Part shown: positions 7,347 to 37,690 of the stretch, in pieces
Layout: every line of letters starts with the position of its first letter
Numbering within the stretch: the first letter of the stretch is position 1
NCBI RefSeq assembly: GCF_910593725.1
Contig: NZ_OU343031.1
Location: forward strand, 558,001-622,000
DNA: 64,000 nt
Direction: 5' to 3'
Origin: Candidatus Vallotiella hemipterorum
GTDB taxonomy: Bacteria; Pseudomonadota; Gammaproteobacteria; Burkholderiales; Burkholderiaceae
The notes under the pieces: model-generated
The model's input: the letters and a program-made list of their open reading frames with translations, nothing else
The model's database searches: none
Told to the model about the DNA's origin: nothing
Translations under genes and position numbers: made by a program

Positions 7347-8358
7347 GAAGTTTCTCCACAATAAGCGCAATTAGACGAGGATCCAATATAGCGTCGACAG
7401 GTACTGCCCATATACGCGGATCATGCCAAAGCTCGCATTTTACCGCATCTTTTTCAGTAATAAGGATTGCATCAGCTATATCGGTCACGAACAGATTTTT
7501 ATCGAAATTATAATGGTCAGGTAGCGGGCGTGTTTCTAGCACGAGGCCGATTGCACGCAATGTTTCGAAAAAACGCTCTGGTGCGCCGATGCCAGCAGCA
7601 GCGAGCACGCGTTTACCGGCGAACTGGACTAGTGGCCGGCGTAGGTCCGGATTATCTAGATGCCATGCGTCGGTCGGCTTTAGAGCAAACGTAAAAATAG
7701 ACGGCCATAATGGTAGGCTATGCCGATTAGAGTAATTAATCAGCGTTGCGTCTCGGGTACGACTTAACGGTTCTCTTAAGGGTCCAGCTGGCAGCAGGAA
7801 CTTATTTCCAGCCAGTCGATAGTCAAAGACTACTAGTTCAATATCTCGCACTAGCCGATAGTGCTGTAAACCATCGTCACTAATGATTACGTCTATCTCT
7901 CGGTGAGCCTGTACCAGTGCACGGGCCGCCGCAACACGATCTTGGCAAACCCACACCGGTACACCGGTGCGGCGGGCAATTAATAGCGGCTCATCGCCTG
8001 TCAACGCGGGTGTCGACGCGAGGTTAACCTCGGTAGGCTGCAGGATGCGTGCGCCATAACCTCGCGACACTACGCCGGGTATGAACGCTGCATCTCGTAA
8101 TGCATCAATGAGTGCGATGACTGTTGGAGTTTTGCCAGTTCCCCCAACCGTTATATTGCCCACTACCACGACCGGTACGCTAATATGATGCGTTTTGATC
8201 CAGCCGTGAGCATACATGAAACGGCGCAGCGCAGAGATACTAGAGAACAGTTGTGAAAAAGGCCATAACATGTAAGCGAGCACACCACGGCGCTGCCATT
8301 CACGCGAGAACATGAGACTGAGATAAGTAACGATGACACGGTGCAGTAGTATAGCCAT
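7327..8358 (-). CDS. lpxK: Tetraacyldisaccharide 4'-kinase
   Basis: Inner-membrane-associated kinase that phosphorylates the lipid A precursor at the 4' position. With the ATG at 8358 it has 344 residues, near the family length. WQRRG near the start, the Walker A GGTGKT at 72-77, SRGYG, GDEP.L.A, and [11 protein letters not shown] are all present. An in-frame ATG at 8481 would add 41 residues unlike LpxK, and an ATG at 8313 is the other candidate. First gene of lpxK-Trm112-kdsB. In Burkholderia exbB/exbD lie just upstream; they are not recognisable here. Confidence 0.93.
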
Positions 8359-8767: not shown

Positions 8768-10144
8768 ATGACAACAGAACTTCCCTCTTCTATTCCTTTT
8801 GTAAGCCGAGATATAGTGATTCCTGTTTCTGATGTGAACCACGCTATTGGAATTCTACTCGGGCGCACGTTTTCTCTTTCCTGGATCGCTGGTGAAGTCT
8901 CGAACTTTACGAGGGCGGTTAGCGGCCACTGGTATTTCTCAATCAAAGACCATTATGCACAGATTCGTTGTGTAATGTTCCGTGGACGCGCTCAATATGC
9001 ACAGCTAATACCTCAAGAAGGCGACTTGATCGAGGTTCGTGCCACAGTTGCGATTTACGAGCCTCGCGGCGAGTTGCAACTTAACGTAGAGGAAGTTCGG
9101 CATACCGGGCAAGGCCGGCTGTATGAGGCTTTCCTAAAACTAAAGACCCAGCTTGAGACAGAGGGCCTATTCACCATTGAACGAAAACGCGAGCTTCCGT
9201 TGCACCCGCGGGCTATTGGCATTGTTACGTCGCCGAAAGCAGCAGCGCTGCGGGATGTATTAATCACGCTTTCACGACGCGCACCACATGTGCCGATTAT
9301 CGTCTATCCAACACAGGTACAAGGCGCTGAAGCAGCTTCACGTGTCGTAGAAATAATTGGTACAGCTAACCGACGCGCTGAAGTCGATGTACTAATCTTG
9401 TGCCGCGGAGGTGGTTCTATTGAGGACTTATGGGTTTTCAATGACGAATCGCTCGCGCGGGCCATCGCCTCTAGCGTCTTACCAATTGTGTCTGGAGTCG
9501 GGCACGAAACTGATTTCACAATTGCAGACTTTACGGCCGATATTCGCGCGCCGACACCAACGGCAGCGGCAGAACTAGTTAGTGCGCCGCGCGCTGTATT
9601 ATTATGTGAGTTGGTAAATCGCCATGCAGCGCTAGCGGGCGGCTTCAGACGGATGATAGAGCGCCGAGCTCAACACCTAGATTCGATTGCACACCGCCTC
9701 GTAAGCCCTGCTGAGCGGATCGCTAGGCAGTTGCAATACCTAAGGCAGGTATCGTTGCGATTGCGTTTGGCCGGCAAGCGTCCGGCGCGCGATGCGCGCG
9801 CACGGCTAACGATGGTTCTGTTGCGCTGGAAGTGCGGTCATCCAGATATAGACCGGGCAACCGAACGTATGAATCAGCTCTGGCAGAACTTACACGTCGC
9901 GATGCATAGATATAATGAACGTCGAAACTCTCAAGTATATGAATTAGCAACCCGTATAGAGCTACTTAGCCCACAACGTACACTAGAACGTGGCTATGCG
10001 GCGTTGATAGACCTGAATAGCGGCTCAGCCGTGCGAACACCAGCTGAGCTTAAGGCGGGTCAGAGGGTAACAGCGCATCTTGCTCAAGGCAGTGCAGATA
10101 TTAGTATTGCGCATGTGCAGCTGCGTCTAAATGACGAATTCTAG
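8768..10144 (+). CDS. xseA: Exodeoxyribonuclease VII large subunit
   Basis: Large subunit of ExoVII, which degrades single-stranded DNA in both directions and works with XseB (not in this window). The 458 residues are full length. An N-terminal OB fold (SWIAGEVSNF, SGHWYFSIKD, RC.MFRG) is followed by the catalytic core with GIVTSPKAAALRD, ILCRGGGSIEDLW.FNDE, GVGHETDFTI.DF..D.RAPTPTAAAE, then a long basic helical stretch and the C-terminal ERGYA. Divergent from lpxK and upstream of sodB, the Burkholderia order. Confidence 0.96.
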   Translation: MTTELPSSIPFVSRDIVIPVSDVNHAIGILLGRTFSLSWIAGEVSNFTRAVSGHWYFSIKDHYAQIRCVMFRGRAQYAQLIPQEGDLIEVRATVAIYEPRGELQLNVEEVRHTGQGRLYEAFLKLKTQLETEGLFTIERKRELPLHPRAIGIVTSPKAAALRDVLITLSRRAPHVPIIVYPTQVQGAEAASRVVEIIGTANRRAEVDVLILCRGGGSIEDLWVFNDESLARAIASSVLPIVSGVGHETDFTIADFTADIRAPTPTAAAELVSAPRAVLLCELVNRHAALAGGFRRMIERRAQHLDSIAHRLVSPAERIARQLQYLRQVSLRLRLAGKRPARDARARLTMVLLRWKCGHPDIDRATERMNQLWQNLHVAMHRYNERRNSQVYELATRIELLSPQRTLERGYAALIDLNSGSAVRTPAELKAGQRVTAHLAQGSADISIAHVQLRLNDEF

Positions 10145-26836: not shown

Positions 26837-28030
26837 GTGAATTCTGTACTTGATTTTGTTGCCCATGGCTTACTAAATTGGTCTTGGTGGAAAATTATGC
26901 TTTATACGATTGTGATGACACACATCACAATTATTGGTGTTACTGTATATCTACACCGGCACCAGGCACATCGCTCATTAGACTTGCATCCAATTGCAAG
27001 TCATTTTTTCCGATTTTGGCTATGGCTAACTACAGGTATGGTTACCGGCCAGTGGACAGCGATTCATCGTAAGCACCACGCAAAATGCGAGACTGATGAG
27101 GATCCGCATAGTCCTCAGACGCGTGGAATATGGAAGGTACTTCTAGAGGGCGCCGAACTATATCGTGCCGAGGCGAAGAATACACAAACATTAAAGAAGT
27201 ACGGTCGGGGTACGCCAACTGATTGGCTAGAGTGTTTTGTTTATGCAAAGCATGCGTTACTCGGTGTGACAATTATGGCGCTAATCAACCTAACGTTATT
27301 CGGAATTGTCGGGATTTCGGTATGGGCTATCCAGATGCTATGGATTCCATTCTGGGCTGCTGGTGTGGTAAATGGCCTAGGTCATTTCTGGGGCTACCGA
27401 AACTTTAATTGTTTGGATACGAGCACAAACCTATTCCCATGGGGACTTTTAATTGGCGGAGAGGAATTGCATAATAATCATCATACCTACGCGACATCAG
27501 CTAAACTTTCAAACAAGTGGTATGAGTTTGATATTGGTTGGATGTATATTAAAATTATGTCTGCATTCGGGCTTGCAAAAGTTAAAAGGATTGCGCCAAC
27601 GCTGACTCTAGCGACGCGCAAGGCTGTACCAGATTTAGATACATTACACGCTGTACTTGCTAATCGCTATGAGGTGATGGCCCGCTATGCAAAGACAGTC
27701 AACAGAGCGTATCGGCAAGAGTTAGCAGAACTCAAAGAATTAAATGCGCATGAGAAATATGCCCTAATTAAGAGCGCACATAGATGGATTCATAAAGATG
27801 AAGCAGGCTTAGATGAACCACAAAAACGGCAATTAATGCAGATTTTTTCCAGTAGCCAAAGTCTGCAGACTTACTATCAATTGCGTATTGAACTCATGCA
27901 GATATGGGATCACTCACACGCTTCACGTGAGCAGTTACTATTGCTCCTACAGGGCTGGTGCTATCGCGCGGAACAAAGCGGTATTCATGCATTACGGGAT
28001 TTTTCATACCACTTACGTCGTTACGCTTAA
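26837..28030 (+). CDS. Fatty-acid (acyl-CoA/acyl-lipid) desaturase
   Basis: Di-iron membrane desaturase that introduces a double bond in acyl chains, probably setting membrane fluidity. The 397 residues show the three His boxes: HRHQAH at 40-45, HRKHH at 77-81 and HNNHH near 211-215, with four main hydrophobic segments. After about residue 255 a hydrophilic helical tail is appended that is typical of the betaproteobacterial members. It follows the MscS gene by 196 bp and is convergent with rpmG. Regiospecificity (delta-9 is likely) cannot be read from sequence. Confidence 0.9.
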   Translation: MNSVLDFVAHGLLNWSWWKIMLYTIVMTHITIIGVTVYLHRHQAHRSLDLHPIASHFFRFWLWLTTGMVTGQWTAIHRKHHAKCETDEDPHSPQTRGIWKVLLEGAELYRAEAKNTQTLKKYGRGTPTDWLECFVYAKHALLGVTIMALINLTLFGIVGISVWAIQMLWIPFWAAGVVNGLGHFWGYRNFNCLDTSTNLFPWGLLIGGEELHNNHHTYATSAKLSNKWYEFDIGWMYIKIMSAFGLAKVKRIAPTLTLATRKAVPDLDTLHAVLANRYEVMARYAKTVNRAYRQELAELKELNAHEKYALIKSAHRWIHKDEAGLDEPQKRQLMQIFSSSQSLQTYYQLRIELMQIWDHSHASREQLLLLLQGWCYRAEQSGIHALRDFSYHLRRYA

Positions 28031-34590: not shown

Positions 34591-35904
34591 ATGCAGACAT
34601 TTCTAACGTTTGTTGCTGTCCTACTTCTAGTACTTCTAAATGGTTTTTTTGTTGCCGCAGAATTCTCGCTAGTGAAGCTCCGTAGTACGCGAGTCTCAGC
34701 TATTTCGCGCCAATATGGCTGGCGAGGACGAGTCTTATTACGTGTGCATGCTAACCTAGAAGCTTACTTGTCAGCCTGTCAACTAGGTATCACGCTTGCA
34801 TCGCTCGGCCTAGGCTGGTTAGGAGAGCCGGCGTTTGCACATTTTATAGCCTTACTATTCAGTAGGCTCCATATTATGCCGCCGCTTGCTGACGCGCTTT
34901 CGCTTGCGCTAGCATTTCTAATGATTTCATTTTTGCATATTGTTGCGGGTGAGCTTGCGCCAAAATCTCTCGCCATCCGTATGCCAGAGCGAGCTAGCTT
35001 GCTTACTGCTGTTCCACTATGCCTATTCTACTGGATTATGTATCCGGCTATTGCACTGCTTAATGATAGCTCGAACCGTATGCTTGCGTGGTTTGGTCTG
35101 TTAGGCGATGGTAGGGAGATTGAAGCTCCGTATGGTCGTGATGAACTAAAACTAATTGTACGTGCAAGCCGATGCCATCGTCAGTTCTCAAGCGATGAAC
35201 TAAGCACACTGTCTCACTCGCTAGAATTCAGCGAACTGACCGCATCAGATTTAATGCGGCCGCTTCGTGAGGCACTGAGCCTTAATGTCAATCTATCATT
35301 TGACGAAAATTTGGCATTAGTGGCAAAAAGCCGATATGGCCGGTATCCGTTATTTGATGAAAGCGGTGATCAGGTGCTTGGCATGGTCGATGTAAAAGAT
35401 TTGCTCTTTTGTCGTCTCGAAGGACATATAGCGAATGATTTGCGCGAACTCGCACGTCCTGTGCTCGAAGTATTACCGGAGATGCCCGCACCTGAACTAT
35501 TACGGCGTTTTCGTTCAGGTTCGCCGCACTTTGCAGTGATTGGGCGTCCCGGGCTGAAACCAGTTGGTTTTGTTACATTACCAGATCTACTTGCAGCGCT
35601 AGTCGGTCAGATTCAAGACGATACTCGTACGACTGATATTGAATGGCAGAGGCAGCCAGATGGTAGCGTAATTGGTCGTGGTAGCCTATCAATTGTTTCG
35701 CTAGAGCACCTTCTAAGTGTGGATTTTGGTGAGCAATCTGCCGAGTCAGTTGGTGGTATGATTTTAGATAAGCTTGGCGAACTACCTCAGCAGGGTCAAA
35801 TAGTAGATTTTGGGCCGTGCCTGATTACTGTTGATGAACGAGTCGGCCCACGAATTGTAATGGTTAAAGTCTCGCCAAAAATGCCATCAGCCGAGATAGC
35901 TTAG
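34591..35904 (+). CDS. CNNM/CorC-HlyC family membrane protein with CBS pair
   Basis: 437 residues: an N-terminal DUF21/CNNM domain with about four membrane segments (NGFFVAAEFSLVKLRSTRV, GITLASLGLGW.GEPAF, ELAPKSLAIR.PE), a CBS pair (ASDLMRPLREA; RYGRYPLFDESGDQVLGMVDVKDLL), and a CorC-type C-terminal domain (DGS...G), with GGMILDKLGELPQQG. Relatives are linked to Mg/Co efflux or cation homeostasis, often mislabelled hemolysins. No membrane-damaging role is implied. Single gene, flanked by decayed DNA and the tRNA-Leu. Confidence 0.9.
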   Translation: MQTFLTFVAVLLLVLLNGFFVAAEFSLVKLRSTRVSAISRQYGWRGRVLLRVHANLEAYLSACQLGITLASLGLGWLGEPAFAHFIALLFSRLHIMPPLADALSLALAFLMISFLHIVAGELAPKSLAIRMPERASLLTAVPLCLFYWIMYPAIALLNDSSNRMLAWFGLLGDGREIEAPYGRDELKLIVRASRCHRQFSSDELSTLSHSLEFSELTASDLMRPLREALSLNVNLSFDENLALVAKSRYGRYPLFDESGDQVLGMVDVKDLLFCRLEGHIANDLRELARPVLEVLPEMPAPELLRRFRSGSPHFAVIGRPGLKPVGFVTLPDLLAALVGQIQDDTRTTDIEWQRQPDGSVIGRGSLSIVSLEHLLSVDFGEQSAESVGGMILDKLGELPQQGQIVDFGPCLITVDERVGPRIVMVKVSPKMPSAEIA

Positions 35905-36090: not shown

Positions 36091-36409
36091 TGGTGCCCGG
36101 AGCCGGAATCGAACCGGCACGCCTTTCGGCGGGGGATTTTCTTCTCACTTCGGCTTTCGCCGCCGCCTCTTTTTAAGAGTTAGCGTTCGTGGTCTGGAGC
36201 ACGCCTTCACCTTAGCTTTTCGGGCTTTAGGTGCCCGCCGTCTGCTCTCTACACCTTCTAAGGTATTTTTTAGTTCCCTAGCTTGGATCGGCATTAGCTC
36301 GAAATACATTCAGGGCTTTTACCGAGTTTGACGGGCTTCACCCTCAGGATTTCTCCTGAGGGGCTCAAATTTTTGAGTCCCCTGCGTCTACCAATTTCAC
36401 CACCCGGGC
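36091..36409 (-). tRNA. tRNA-Leu(CAA), interrupted by a group I intron; CCA encoded
   Basis: Exon 1 (36409-36375) begins GCCCGGGTGGTGAAATTGG and ends at anticodon position C34. Exon 2 (36140-36091) starts AAAATCCCCC, has the variable arm CGCCGAAAGGCG, the T-arm GCCGG-TTCGATT-CCGGC and encoded CCA. Joined, they make an 85-nt tRNA-Leu with acceptor GCCCGGG/TCCGGGC (last pair G-T), anticodon stem GGGGA/TCCCC, loop CTCAAAA and anticodon CAA for UUG. The intervening 234 nt are described separately. No other junction gives both a CAA anticodon and an intron ending in G. Confidence 0.92.
36141..36374 (-). ncRNA. Group I self-splicing intron (tRNA-type, IC3-like), no ORF
   Basis: Inserted between anticodon bases 34 and 35, the site used by the cyanobacterial tRNA-Leu(UAA) intron. 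Seen: a guide (GAG then CCCC) able to pair with exon CUC and GGGG as P1; P2, a 9-bp stem capped by GAAA (36341-36362); a GTCAAACTCGG core segment; GAAGGTGTAGAG then GCAGACGGC; P7 pairing GAGCA (36243-36247) with TGCTC (36197-36201); a second GAAA-capped hairpin (36151-36162) and CTCTT/AAGAG (36167-36179) at the P9 end; and a terminal G at 36141. Core order and spacing resemble the Azoarcus tRNA-Ile intron from memory. No endonuclease gene. Confidence 0.88.
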
Positions 36410-37690
36410 AAAATATCGAGATATATACTACTTTACACTTATTATTTATAAAATAAACGTGCTTTTTAGGGTAGAAGTTATTCTACGGCTTGTGAACATG
36501 AGTACGCTGCAATCTGACACGTTCAGTATAAATACTAACACAGATTCTAGCGAAGAAAGGTATAAGTGCGGGATTTCTAGAATCGTATCTATAATTTAAT
36601 CGCTATATGACAAAAATATCGTAACTGTGGCCGTATAATTTTTCCTTGTATATCTAGTTAAGTAGCCTGACTATGTATTCTTCACTATACAAAAATTCGA
36701 ATGTACAGACTATGTATCACGTTGTATAACGCTATCTATGCATTAACTTCTAATGTAGTGTAAGAAGAGAAATTCGAGGAATATATAAACTCTATATCGC
36801 AGGTATAGCTCTTTGTATTGGTGAAAATTAGTATAATATACAAAGTATTAAATGAGTTATTAATGTGAATTAAAGCCTAATACTCAACAGTAATGTTTTA
36901 AGTTTTATGTAACTTCGATCTATGCTTCTCGAGCTTCACCTCCTATAGAACTTATAATATTTATCTCTAATACGCTAAGAATAATATCTGTTATAAGTCC
37001 GCGGGAAAATACCTAGTTGATATTTAAAAGTTTTATGAACTTATTGTTATAGGTGATCCACAAAAAGTGCACGAGAGATTGTCGAGCGTAATCTATTTTT
37101 TATTAAAAGTATATTCGGATATAAGGCCCAAGAATAATGCATCTAGATACCTTATAGGTTAGCGTCACTGTACTGCCCAGTGGTAATGGCGGTCATTTAT
37201 AGAATAGTGCGCAGTCCAGGAAGACTCAGTAGCATATAAGCTGCATCGAATCCAGTAAAATAGAGGTTAAGAAAACTACGACCGCCCTACAATGCGTAAT
37301 GCATGTTACGAAAAAATAGGAGTAACGTATCTTGTAGCTCTACATTGATATACATAGATGTATTTCCCGAGAAACGCGAGCCAGTTTCGATACATACAGG
37401 GCACTATAAGCCATAGATAGCTAAATAATAATAATCGGGCCGCACTAATTAGTGAATTATACGATAACTAGTTCTATAAAAGTTGTATTCACTACAAGCA
37501 TGTACATAATCTTAAGTCTCTACGCAGCTATGCTTTTACTAGCATAGCTGCGTCAAAAATATAAGCTCATTGCATACGTCTCGTTTAAAAACAACTACCC
37601 ATAGAAATGACACTGACATGACGATACTCCTCTAGTCGATTATGCAAAAGCACCATATGCTATGTGATGGGCATGACGGTAAAATAAGAA
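36410..37690. other. Spacer between tRNA-Leu and lptG
   Basis: About 1.3 kb, AT-rich, stops in all frames, no recognised remnant. It contains the 13-bp perfect hairpin at 37522-37553. The tRNA-Leu promoter should lie just above 36409 on the minus strand, but I cannot place it with confidence. Confidence 0.45.
37522..37553. repeat. 13-bp perfect inverted repeat downstream of lptG
   Basis: ACGCAGCTATGCT (37522-37534) and its exact complement at 37541-37553 around a 6-base loop, about 140 bp past the lptG stop. On the lptG strand the stem is preceded by a T-rich stretch rather than followed by one, so it is not a textbook terminator. Confidence 0.5.

Follow-up and report, generated by a model that had tools for sequence, protein, structure and literature searches.

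The split tRNA-Leu(CAA) gene and its intron

The window (the whole 64-kb stretch of DNA analysed) comes from Ca. Vallotia tarda, whose genome (G000) consists of two replicons of 1,123,864 and 72,431 bases. At 36091-36409, on the minus strand, a complete tRNA-Leu with the anticodon CAA is restored once the 234 nt that follow C34 are removed. Run without its intron search, ARAGORN found no tRNA in the entire window. An initial annotation had described the gene as cut after C34 by 234 nt and had proposed an intron-tolerant tRNA search; ARAGORN run in this mode agreed, calling at the locus a tRNA-Leu(CAA) that has, at gene position 36, an intron of 234 nt. The sequence also shows the features recorded in the same annotation: P2 and a P9-type hairpin, both capped by GAAA, P7 paired as GAGCA/TGCTC, and the terminal G. 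The features, with the evidence for each, are:

36410-36469, minus strand: leader upstream of the tRNA, in this copy without significant likeness to mobile-element leaders (leader shuffles)
36375-36409, minus strand: 5' exon of tRNA-Leu(CAA), last base C34 (exon base -1) (ARAGORN with introns, exon sequence)
36141-36374, minus strand: group I-type intron, 234 nt, terminal G at 36141 (ARAGORN, core covariation, model R1)
36364-36366, minus strand: guide GAG, with G 36366 opposite exon base C34 (36375) as a C-G pair (site comparison, P1 fold)
36342-36361, minus strand: P2 hairpin with GAAA loop (fold, sequence)
36330-36336, minus strand: P3 5' strand GCCCGTC, partner 36233-36239 (alignment, covariation count)
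36317-36319, minus strand: J4/5 AAA, 36317 opposite 36296 as an A-U pair (site comparison)
36294-36296, minus strand: J5/4 UAA (site comparison)
36243-36247, minus strand: P7 5' strand GAGCA, partner 36197-36201 (alignment, covariation count)
36233-36239, minus strand: P3 3' strand GGCGGGC (alignment, covariation count)
36197-36201, minus strand: P7 3' strand TGCTC (alignment, covariation count)
36151-36164, minus strand: P9-type hairpin with GAAA loop (read from sequence)
36091-36140, minus strand: 3' exon of tRNA-Leu(CAA), CCA encoded (ARAGORN, sequence)
34591-35904, plus strand: CNNM/CorC-type gene adjoining the tRNA, present there in all eight genomes of the genus (neighbour comparison)

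Elsewhere in the window (26837-28030, plus strand), a 397-aa open frame joins the N-terminus of a fatty acid desaturase to the C-terminus of an ISL3-type transposase; this is perhaps a gene cut by an insertion sequence and still in frame.

Across 26 related introns, 95.6% of the cells of the P3-P8 core, including the P3/P7 pseudoknot, are paired (shuffled mean 85.0) and 103 cells show two-sided changes (shuffled mean 40.2); none of 500 shuffles reached the observed value for either measure. Sliding the partner strand by one to three columns left just 25.5-44.4% of the cells paired, a control that by itself favours the drawn over the slid versions, the core having been drawn by eye on the same alignment. 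Covariation is plainest in P7, which reads GAGCA/TGCTC in 13 of the sequences and GACTA/TAGTC in 13. Folded alone, the intron is stabler than its shuffles (z -3.1), one of 200 being as stable. Most of what a group I intron is expected to have is in place: the conserved core (P3, P4-P6, P7 and P8 with the P3/P7 pseudoknot), a G as last base and a guide that pairs with the 5' exon (P1). The exception is the U.G wobble at the 5' splice site, which is replaced by C-G in all 48 CAA introns, that of the window included; this weakens the claim of a typical group I member, not that of the class itself.

The initial annotation had also proposed a covariance search with the Rfam model RF00028, the lack of a match to count against the intron. 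This proved negative at the gathering score in the window, at E<=5 in the 901 bases around the locus and at E<=0.001 in the genome; the same search matched in 4 of 14 control genomes. Four weak Rfam matches at the locus (E 0.9-4.1 in the 901 bases) were dismissed as chance. The RF00028 threshold is a property of the search model rather than a biological one, and we take the failure as a limit of the model because the core is recovered in 143 of the 299 family genomes searched (E<=0.001) by R1, a covariance model built from relatives of the window intron. R1 matches the window intron with 146.7 bits (G000:C1:594185-594336), a score obtained on a member of its own training set. The original description of a group I-type intron in a CAA host is therefore borne out by core covariation and anatomy and, judged from sequence, the window intron belongs with the group I introns of bacterial tRNA genes.

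The intron is like those of cyanobacterial tRNA-Leu(UAA) and tRNA-fMet genes and of alpha- and beta-proteobacterial tRNA genes in its small size, its P3-P8 pseudoknot core, its GAAA-capped peripheral hairpins, its terminal G and its place in the anticodon loop; presumably it also resembles the Azoarcus intron. The UAA relatives found in this study share its insertion site, after base 34. What sets it apart from known bacterial tRNA introns is the CAA host, the C at exon base -1 and an extra pair between J4/5 and J5/4, as well as the presence of its relatives on mobile elements (see below). A review of bacterial tRNA introns (PMC4033280) gives Leu(UAA) and fMet as hosts, and the tRNAscan-SE 2.0 paper (PMC8450103) adds Ile2 introns in Acidovorax and Burkholderia. 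A Leu(CAA) intron goes unnamed in the relevant passages of either, the Leu-CAA mentioned in the latter being a human gene. Within the scope of a literature text search that leaves most subscription journals outside, no paper linked a group I intron to tRNA-Leu in Betaproteobacteria or to tRNA-Leu(CAA).

Sole copies in the genome and distribution of the intron

Forty-one uninterrupted tRNA genes were typed on the chromosome, with CAG, TAG and GAG as the sole leucine anticodons; no uninterrupted tRNA-Leu(CAA) or tRNA-Leu(UAA) gene was found in the genome. A tRNA-Leu(UAA) gene with its own 262-nt group I-type intron, of a different subtype (P7 GACTA), lies on the plasmid (G000:C2:16965-17311, equivalent to L062:7966-8312). 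In the plasmid record NZ_LR890046.1, where no RNA genes are annotated, this gene is overlapped only by a hypothetical protein. For the adelgid symbiont Vallotia, Table 1 of PMC8692619 lists 41 tRNAs on the chromosome and none on the plasmid. As this count matches the uninterrupted genes, the CAA gene of the window and the UAA gene of the plasmid are absent from the published set, and the tRNA set of the symbiont has two members to add. The plasmid carries the only tRNA-Leu(UAA) found, a further reason for its retention; this gene may help explain plasmid upkeep beside argG and tyrB, which PMC8692619 names in that connection.

Both intron-bearing genes are present in all eight genomes of the genus (Mycetohabitans and Vallotia) that were examined, always on different contigs. 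In the reduced genomes, the small second replicon carries the UAA gene; in M. rhizoxinica, this gene is on pBRH01 (822,304 bases). In its passages on the Mycetohabitans second replicon, a 2025 study (PMC12696581) describes it as carrying catalytic introns and no tRNA; we suggest that one of these introns hides the tRNA-Leu(UAA). The uninterrupted sequence GGGGACTCAAAATCC, with up to one mismatch allowed, is absent from all eight genomes, and GACTTAAAATC is absent from seven of them, with three raw matches in G001. The initial annotation had made the tRNA dependent on splicing, to be refuted by a second intact tRNA-Leu(CAA) elsewhere with this copy unspliced; no uninterrupted CAA gene was found in the genome, which supports that dependence. 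The tRNA-Leu(UAA) may read UUG by wobble, so the CAA tRNA may not be strictly needed for this codon, though the UAA tRNA is itself intron-dependent.

The window-type CAA intron occurs in fungal symbionts of the genus with genomes of 3.3-3.8 Mb as well as in the reduced genomes (8/8), so it is older than genome decay. In the seven other genomes, tRNA and intron are 82-90% identical to those of the window, while the spacers on both sides of the tRNA no longer align between Vallotia and Mycetohabitans. The comparison with related genomes, suggested at the outset, thus upholds the earlier view that the intron is maintained. The notion of a peculiarity of a decaying genome does not survive it, being contradicted by the 3.3-3.8 Mb members of the genus and by 50 named CAA stretches (see below). 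With tRNA arms and core kept where the spacers fail to align, the intron is very probably spliced. A decaying, unspliced pseudogene, with UUG read by the UAA tRNA through wobble, would suit a genome that is losing genes, and one genus copy (G005, L290) is altered at a J5/4 adenosine kept by the other 47 CAA introns. We nevertheless regard such decay as highly improbable: the P3-P8 core pairs hold in the eight genus copies, save for the P3 end pair in one copy and the P8 end pair in some, the tRNA arms are complete beside spacers that no longer align with Mycetohabitans, and the UAA tRNA that would have to stand in is itself split by an intron.

In wider sets, R1 matched 62 of 399 genomes at order level and 50 of 369 at class level (E<=1e-6; the genome sets overlap). 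Hosts were called for 204 loci, which are part of the survey matches and include 17 fetched twice: 144 Leu(UAA), 24 Leu(CAA), 21 CAU, 5 Arg(CCU), 3 Ser(UGA), 2 Thr(UGU), 4 single odd hosts and one locus without a call (L165). Outside the genus, CAA hosts came from G218, G188, G081, G202, G123, G638, G500 and G458 and, at class level, from G691. A pattern scan of named genomes yielded 50 stretches with a CAA intron, mostly from Betaproteobacteria, among them Bordetella, Pusillimonas, Variovorax, Polaromonas, Comamonas, Cupriavidus, Caballeronia, Mycetohabitans, Vallotia and others; in viral contigs, the CAA intron pattern had no match. In a plasmid collection, 23 records matched, among them two Vallotia plasmids that matched over the whole length; in these two the match is the UAA gene. 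Related introns also lie in tRNA-Thr(UGU), tRNA-Arg(CCU), tRNA-Ser(UGA) and, apparently, tRNA-Arg(UCU) (L102, L103, L104, L148, L150, L151, L253, L275 and L276), hosts that go unnamed in the literature passages on bacterial tRNA introns.

Intron-bearing spare tRNA genes on integrative elements

In Variovorax Root473 (G638, L342), Caballeronia ptereochthonis (G123, L312), Paraburkholderia silvatlantica (G218, L338) and a Ralstonia metagenome-assembled genome (G188, L318), a tRNA-Leu 5' half lies ahead of the intron-bearing tRNA and stops in the anticodon loop (...GACTC AAAAATAGG). Three of these were followed outward, and in each the second half of the native gene was found, 49.6 kb (G123), 18.0 kb (G218) and 66.9 kb (G638) away. 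The acceptor stems of the two halves match (GCCCAGG/CCTGGGC in G123, GCCTCGG/CCGAGGC in G218, GCCCGGG/CCCGGGC in G638); at the far junction in G638 the core sequence is less cleanly copied. Directly adjoining the far half in all three is a phage-integrase-family gene with an arm-binding domain, the proteins being 81.6-95.8% alike. Homologues of TrbI, TrbG, TrbF and TrbL adjoin the complete, intron-bearing second gene (hereafter the spare) in G638 and G188; TrbI is present in G218, and G123 has a TrbI match. G638 and G188 belong to different families and have 1,955 bp in common at 99.7%, identical tRNA and intron included. Variovorax UMC13, Pseudorhodoferax and Diaphorobacter have matches to the TrbI of Root473 with 100% identity in the portion that aligns.

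A second tRNA-Leu 5' half ends 218-292 nt before the intron in 24 of the 50 named CAA stretches, a count that excludes L308 (half 86 nt away) and L337 (7 mismatches) and in which L310, the same record as L283, was unparsed. A Trb match was obtained in 18 stretches, half and Trb together in 15, either in 27 and neither in 23, the four of the genus among the last; just one parsed stretch ends too near upstream to reveal a half. An uninterrupted tRNA-Leu(CAA) arm is present in G015, G036, G021 and G500 and was found in none of G123, G218 and G638, so that the spare seems to be the only tRNA-Leu(CAA) of these three genomes. In Allopusillimonas soli (G500), an island has an intact CAA tRNA at one end, a 3' half at the other and an intron-bearing copy inside. 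As the named set was found through the intron itself, it cannot prove that spares always bear one. A search for attachment junctions made independently of the intron gave hits in 1 of 399 and 3 of 299 genomes, and an intron-bearing spare follows all four junctions, which are of a single type. The same layout, with a UAA half and TrbI, occurs at three Leu(UAA) introns (L087, L125 and L149; 6, 0 and 3 mismatches in the half). It was seen in 3 of 25 UAA introns with P7 GAGCA and in 0 of 102 with P7 GACTA, most loci of the latter kind having been fetched with less than 600 bases upstream.

Trb genes, an integrase and attachment halves in tRNA-Leu, the hallmarks of a Tn4371-like integrative conjugative element (ICE), are found together in G638; G123 and G218 have the halves, the integrase and one TrbI match each. 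The elements thus look like members of the Tn4371 family, a name resting on the Trb genes and the tRNA-Leu target. None of the three features was found near the window tRNA, and the window holds at most an element remnant. Trb-type conjugation genes, a tyrosine-type integrase and a tRNA-Leu target are likewise shared with the Tn4371-family ICEs ICE_KKS102_4677 and ICEbphKF708, whose published attachment sequence is GATTTTAAG; elements of this family are known to use tRNA-Leu (PMC9960961, PMC6563109). We read the reverse complement of that attachment sequence, CTTAAAATC, as the anticodon loop of tRNA-Leu(UAA). The elements described here, in contrast, split tRNA-Leu(CAA) at GGACTCAAAA and bring an intron-bearing spare; neither a spare tRNA nor an intron is mentioned in the literature passages on Tn4371-family ICEs. 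Genomic islands that follow the Islander rule similarly have an anticodon-loop crossover by an integrase and a tRNA fragment marking the far end. Such islands usually restore the split tRNA gene from their own fragment (PMC4383910), whereas here the gene stays split and a separate, complete, intron-bearing copy is supplied. Among its ranked matches, the literature search described above returned no paper joining group I intron with ICE, integrase and attB, or with genomic island, anticodon loop and integrase.

Two intron-less tRNA-Leu(CAA) genes have a second 3' half 0.9-1.7 kb away (L289 in G021, 8920-8958 and 9861-9927; L295 in G036, 7727-7765 and 9377-9443), and the same anticodon-loop site may also serve small islands in these genomes. 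The second copy in G021 has an arm with one anticodon change. The elements or the island that bear the spare also encode a SIR2-like protein, an OLD-like ATPase and a YhcG/DUF1016 nuclease-like protein (L281 10504-14295, L283 10216-11988, L350 16384-17721), a content suggestive of defence genes.

Splice site, descent and proposed origin of the genus copies

In a scripted comparison of 175 Leu introns, exon base -1 is C in all 48 CAA introns and T in all 127 UAA introns. Guide base G12 (G9 in V. tarda, 36366), which stands opposite, is invariant, so P1 of the CAA introns has C-G in place of U.G. Group I introns usually carry U.G at the 5' splice site, a very common though not universal trait; two introns with C.G there are reportedly on record (Hur and Waring 1995). 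Outside the 175 Leu introns, the impression that CAA hosts alone lack U at -1 was gained by eye, since the ARAGORN boundaries of some hosts, CAU and Thr among them, slip by one to several bases; the class-level Tyr locus L277 has A at -1. Eight intron positions are typical of CAA (at least 85% in CAA and at most 25% in UAA introns of the same type), and three of them (61, 83 and 86) lie in the J4/5-J5/4 loop, which receives the splice-site pair in known structures. A standard pair joins bases 61 and 83 in all 48 CAA introns (45 G.U and 3 A-U, the window being among the latter with 36317 and 36296); among UAA introns, it occurs in 3 of the 25 that are of the same type and in 2 of the 102 that are of the other. 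The three of the same type (L091, L131 and L172) form a group adjoining the CAA clade (97/88 together), so the pair seems older than the host change. It may help accommodate C-G at the splice site, though shared descent alone could give the same picture. In V. cooleyia (L290), C replaces the J5/4 adenosine kept in 47 of 48 CAA introns, and this intron might splice poorly.

A tree of 72 introns places all 48 CAA introns on one side of a branch with support 93/65 (unstarred), among UAA introns with P7 GAGCA. Left out of it were L305 and L317 (no intron parsed), five identical introns and the long-branch UAA rows L119, L137 and L043, the twin of the last (L136) being kept. The eight genus introns form a clade (100/95), whose sister (97/84 together) comprises four introns, from elements of Bordetella genomosp. 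7 and Pusillimonas caeni and from Verticiella and Parapusillimonas; the last two stretches are without element signs. The genus' own UAA introns lie far from its CAA introns, and descent of the latter from the former was rejected on this ground. In a related scheme, an intron-bearing tRNA-Leu(UAA) gene was duplicated and its U34 changed to C. A single anticodon base separates the two genes and CAA introns nest among UAA introns; we still hold this switch to be very unlikely, since the exon bodies match the native CAA, not UAA, genes of relatives and the UAA intron of the genus is remote in the tree, and for the genus it was rejected on exon sequences.

The direction of transfer might also be reversed, with intron-bearing CAA tRNAs arising on chromosomes and being captured by elements as ready-made spares. 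CAA introns lacking detected element signs do exist (for example L285, identical to L325; L286, identical to L311; L327; L332), and their branches of the CAA clade differ from those of most element-borne introns. An element could, however, escape notice in stretches that reach no further than 8 to 20 kb, and the genus copy is nested among element-borne introns; we consider capture by elements unlikely.

The 60-nt leaders of all four Mycetohabitans copies, which are near copies of one another, resemble 15 leaders bearing both element signs (0, 0, 0 and 1 of 1000 shuffles as high), the best match of each being Bordetella genomosp. 7; against four native leaders, none stands out. The four Vallotia leaders, that of the window included, gave no signal in this comparison. 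A LysR gene lies upstream of tRNA-Leu(CAA) in three of four intron-less relatives (G015, G021 and G036; not G016) and upstream of three of the four Mycetohabitans copies, the fourth stretch ending before it. The CNNM gene that accompanies all eight genus copies was not found near the tRNA of the four intron-less relatives. Neither the window nor the flanks of five other genus copies (20 kb each) yielded a Trb gene, an integrase or an attachment half, and a search for relics of the native tRNA halves near the genus copies gave nothing above shuffles. A short stretch some 70-90 nt upstream in Mycetohabitans resembles a worn 5' half by eye and is not claimed as one.

These findings bear on an alternative in which reverse splicing, or gene conversion in the anticodon arm, brought the intron alone from an element-borne or chromosomal relative into the genus ancestor, the tRNA-Leu(CAA) gene itself being native. 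The exons of the four Mycetohabitans copies are those of the intron-less CAA genes of G021 and G015 (the window differs at two bases), the genus copy occupies the native locus beside LysR, and element traces were not found there. Some element-borne spares have the same exons, however (L316 and L326, for example), and the Mycetohabitans leader is like element leaders and unlike the four native ones, so that arrival of the intron by itself strikes us as improbable. From its nesting among element-borne introns and the element-like leader in Mycetohabitans, we read the window tRNA instead as a spare left at the native site after loss of its element by deletion. With no element trace at the genus copies, this step draws on lineage, leader and position.

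The history we propose, and regard as probable, would run as follows. The lineage would stem from intron-bearing spare tRNA-Leu(CAA) genes on integrative conjugative elements resembling the Tn4371 family. Such an element would split the resident tRNA-Leu(CAA) at the anticodon loop, at the shared sequence GGACTCAAAA, without rebuilding it, and its cargo would include, some 180-260 bp in from its end, a complete second tRNA-Leu(CAA) gene whose intron separates C34 from A35. As the intron breaks up, in the spare, the anticodon-loop sequence that is cut in the native gene, the spare would be shielded; with moderate confidence, we infer that it keeps the integrase off the spare's attachment site. 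In the ancestor of Mycetohabitans and Vallotia, the element would have been lost and the spare, having replaced the native gene, would have become fixed, the passage from element to chromosome being itself a part of the proposal. The cell would from then on rely on splicing, which would have to use C-G instead of U.G, with the extra J4/5-J5/4 pair possibly accommodating it.

A broader idea, which we offer tentatively, is that of the intron as a shield: elements that break a host tRNA would carry a spare whose self-splicing group I intron hides the integrase target in the DNA and leaves the RNA. The shield would come in a tRNA-Leu(CAA) and a tRNA-Leu(UAA) version, of which the first would need a splice-site receptor re-tuned for C-G, and the Vallotia intron would be a captured, indispensable fossil. 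The 48 distinct introns with C-G at the 5' splice site form a natural set, with 127 UAA relatives as controls. If the shield idea is true, bacterial tRNA introns gain a concrete use, the protection of a tRNA from a site-specific integrase, which would explain both their spread between species and their anticodon position; and it would be seen how a symbiont comes to rely on a ribozyme that stayed when its element was lost.
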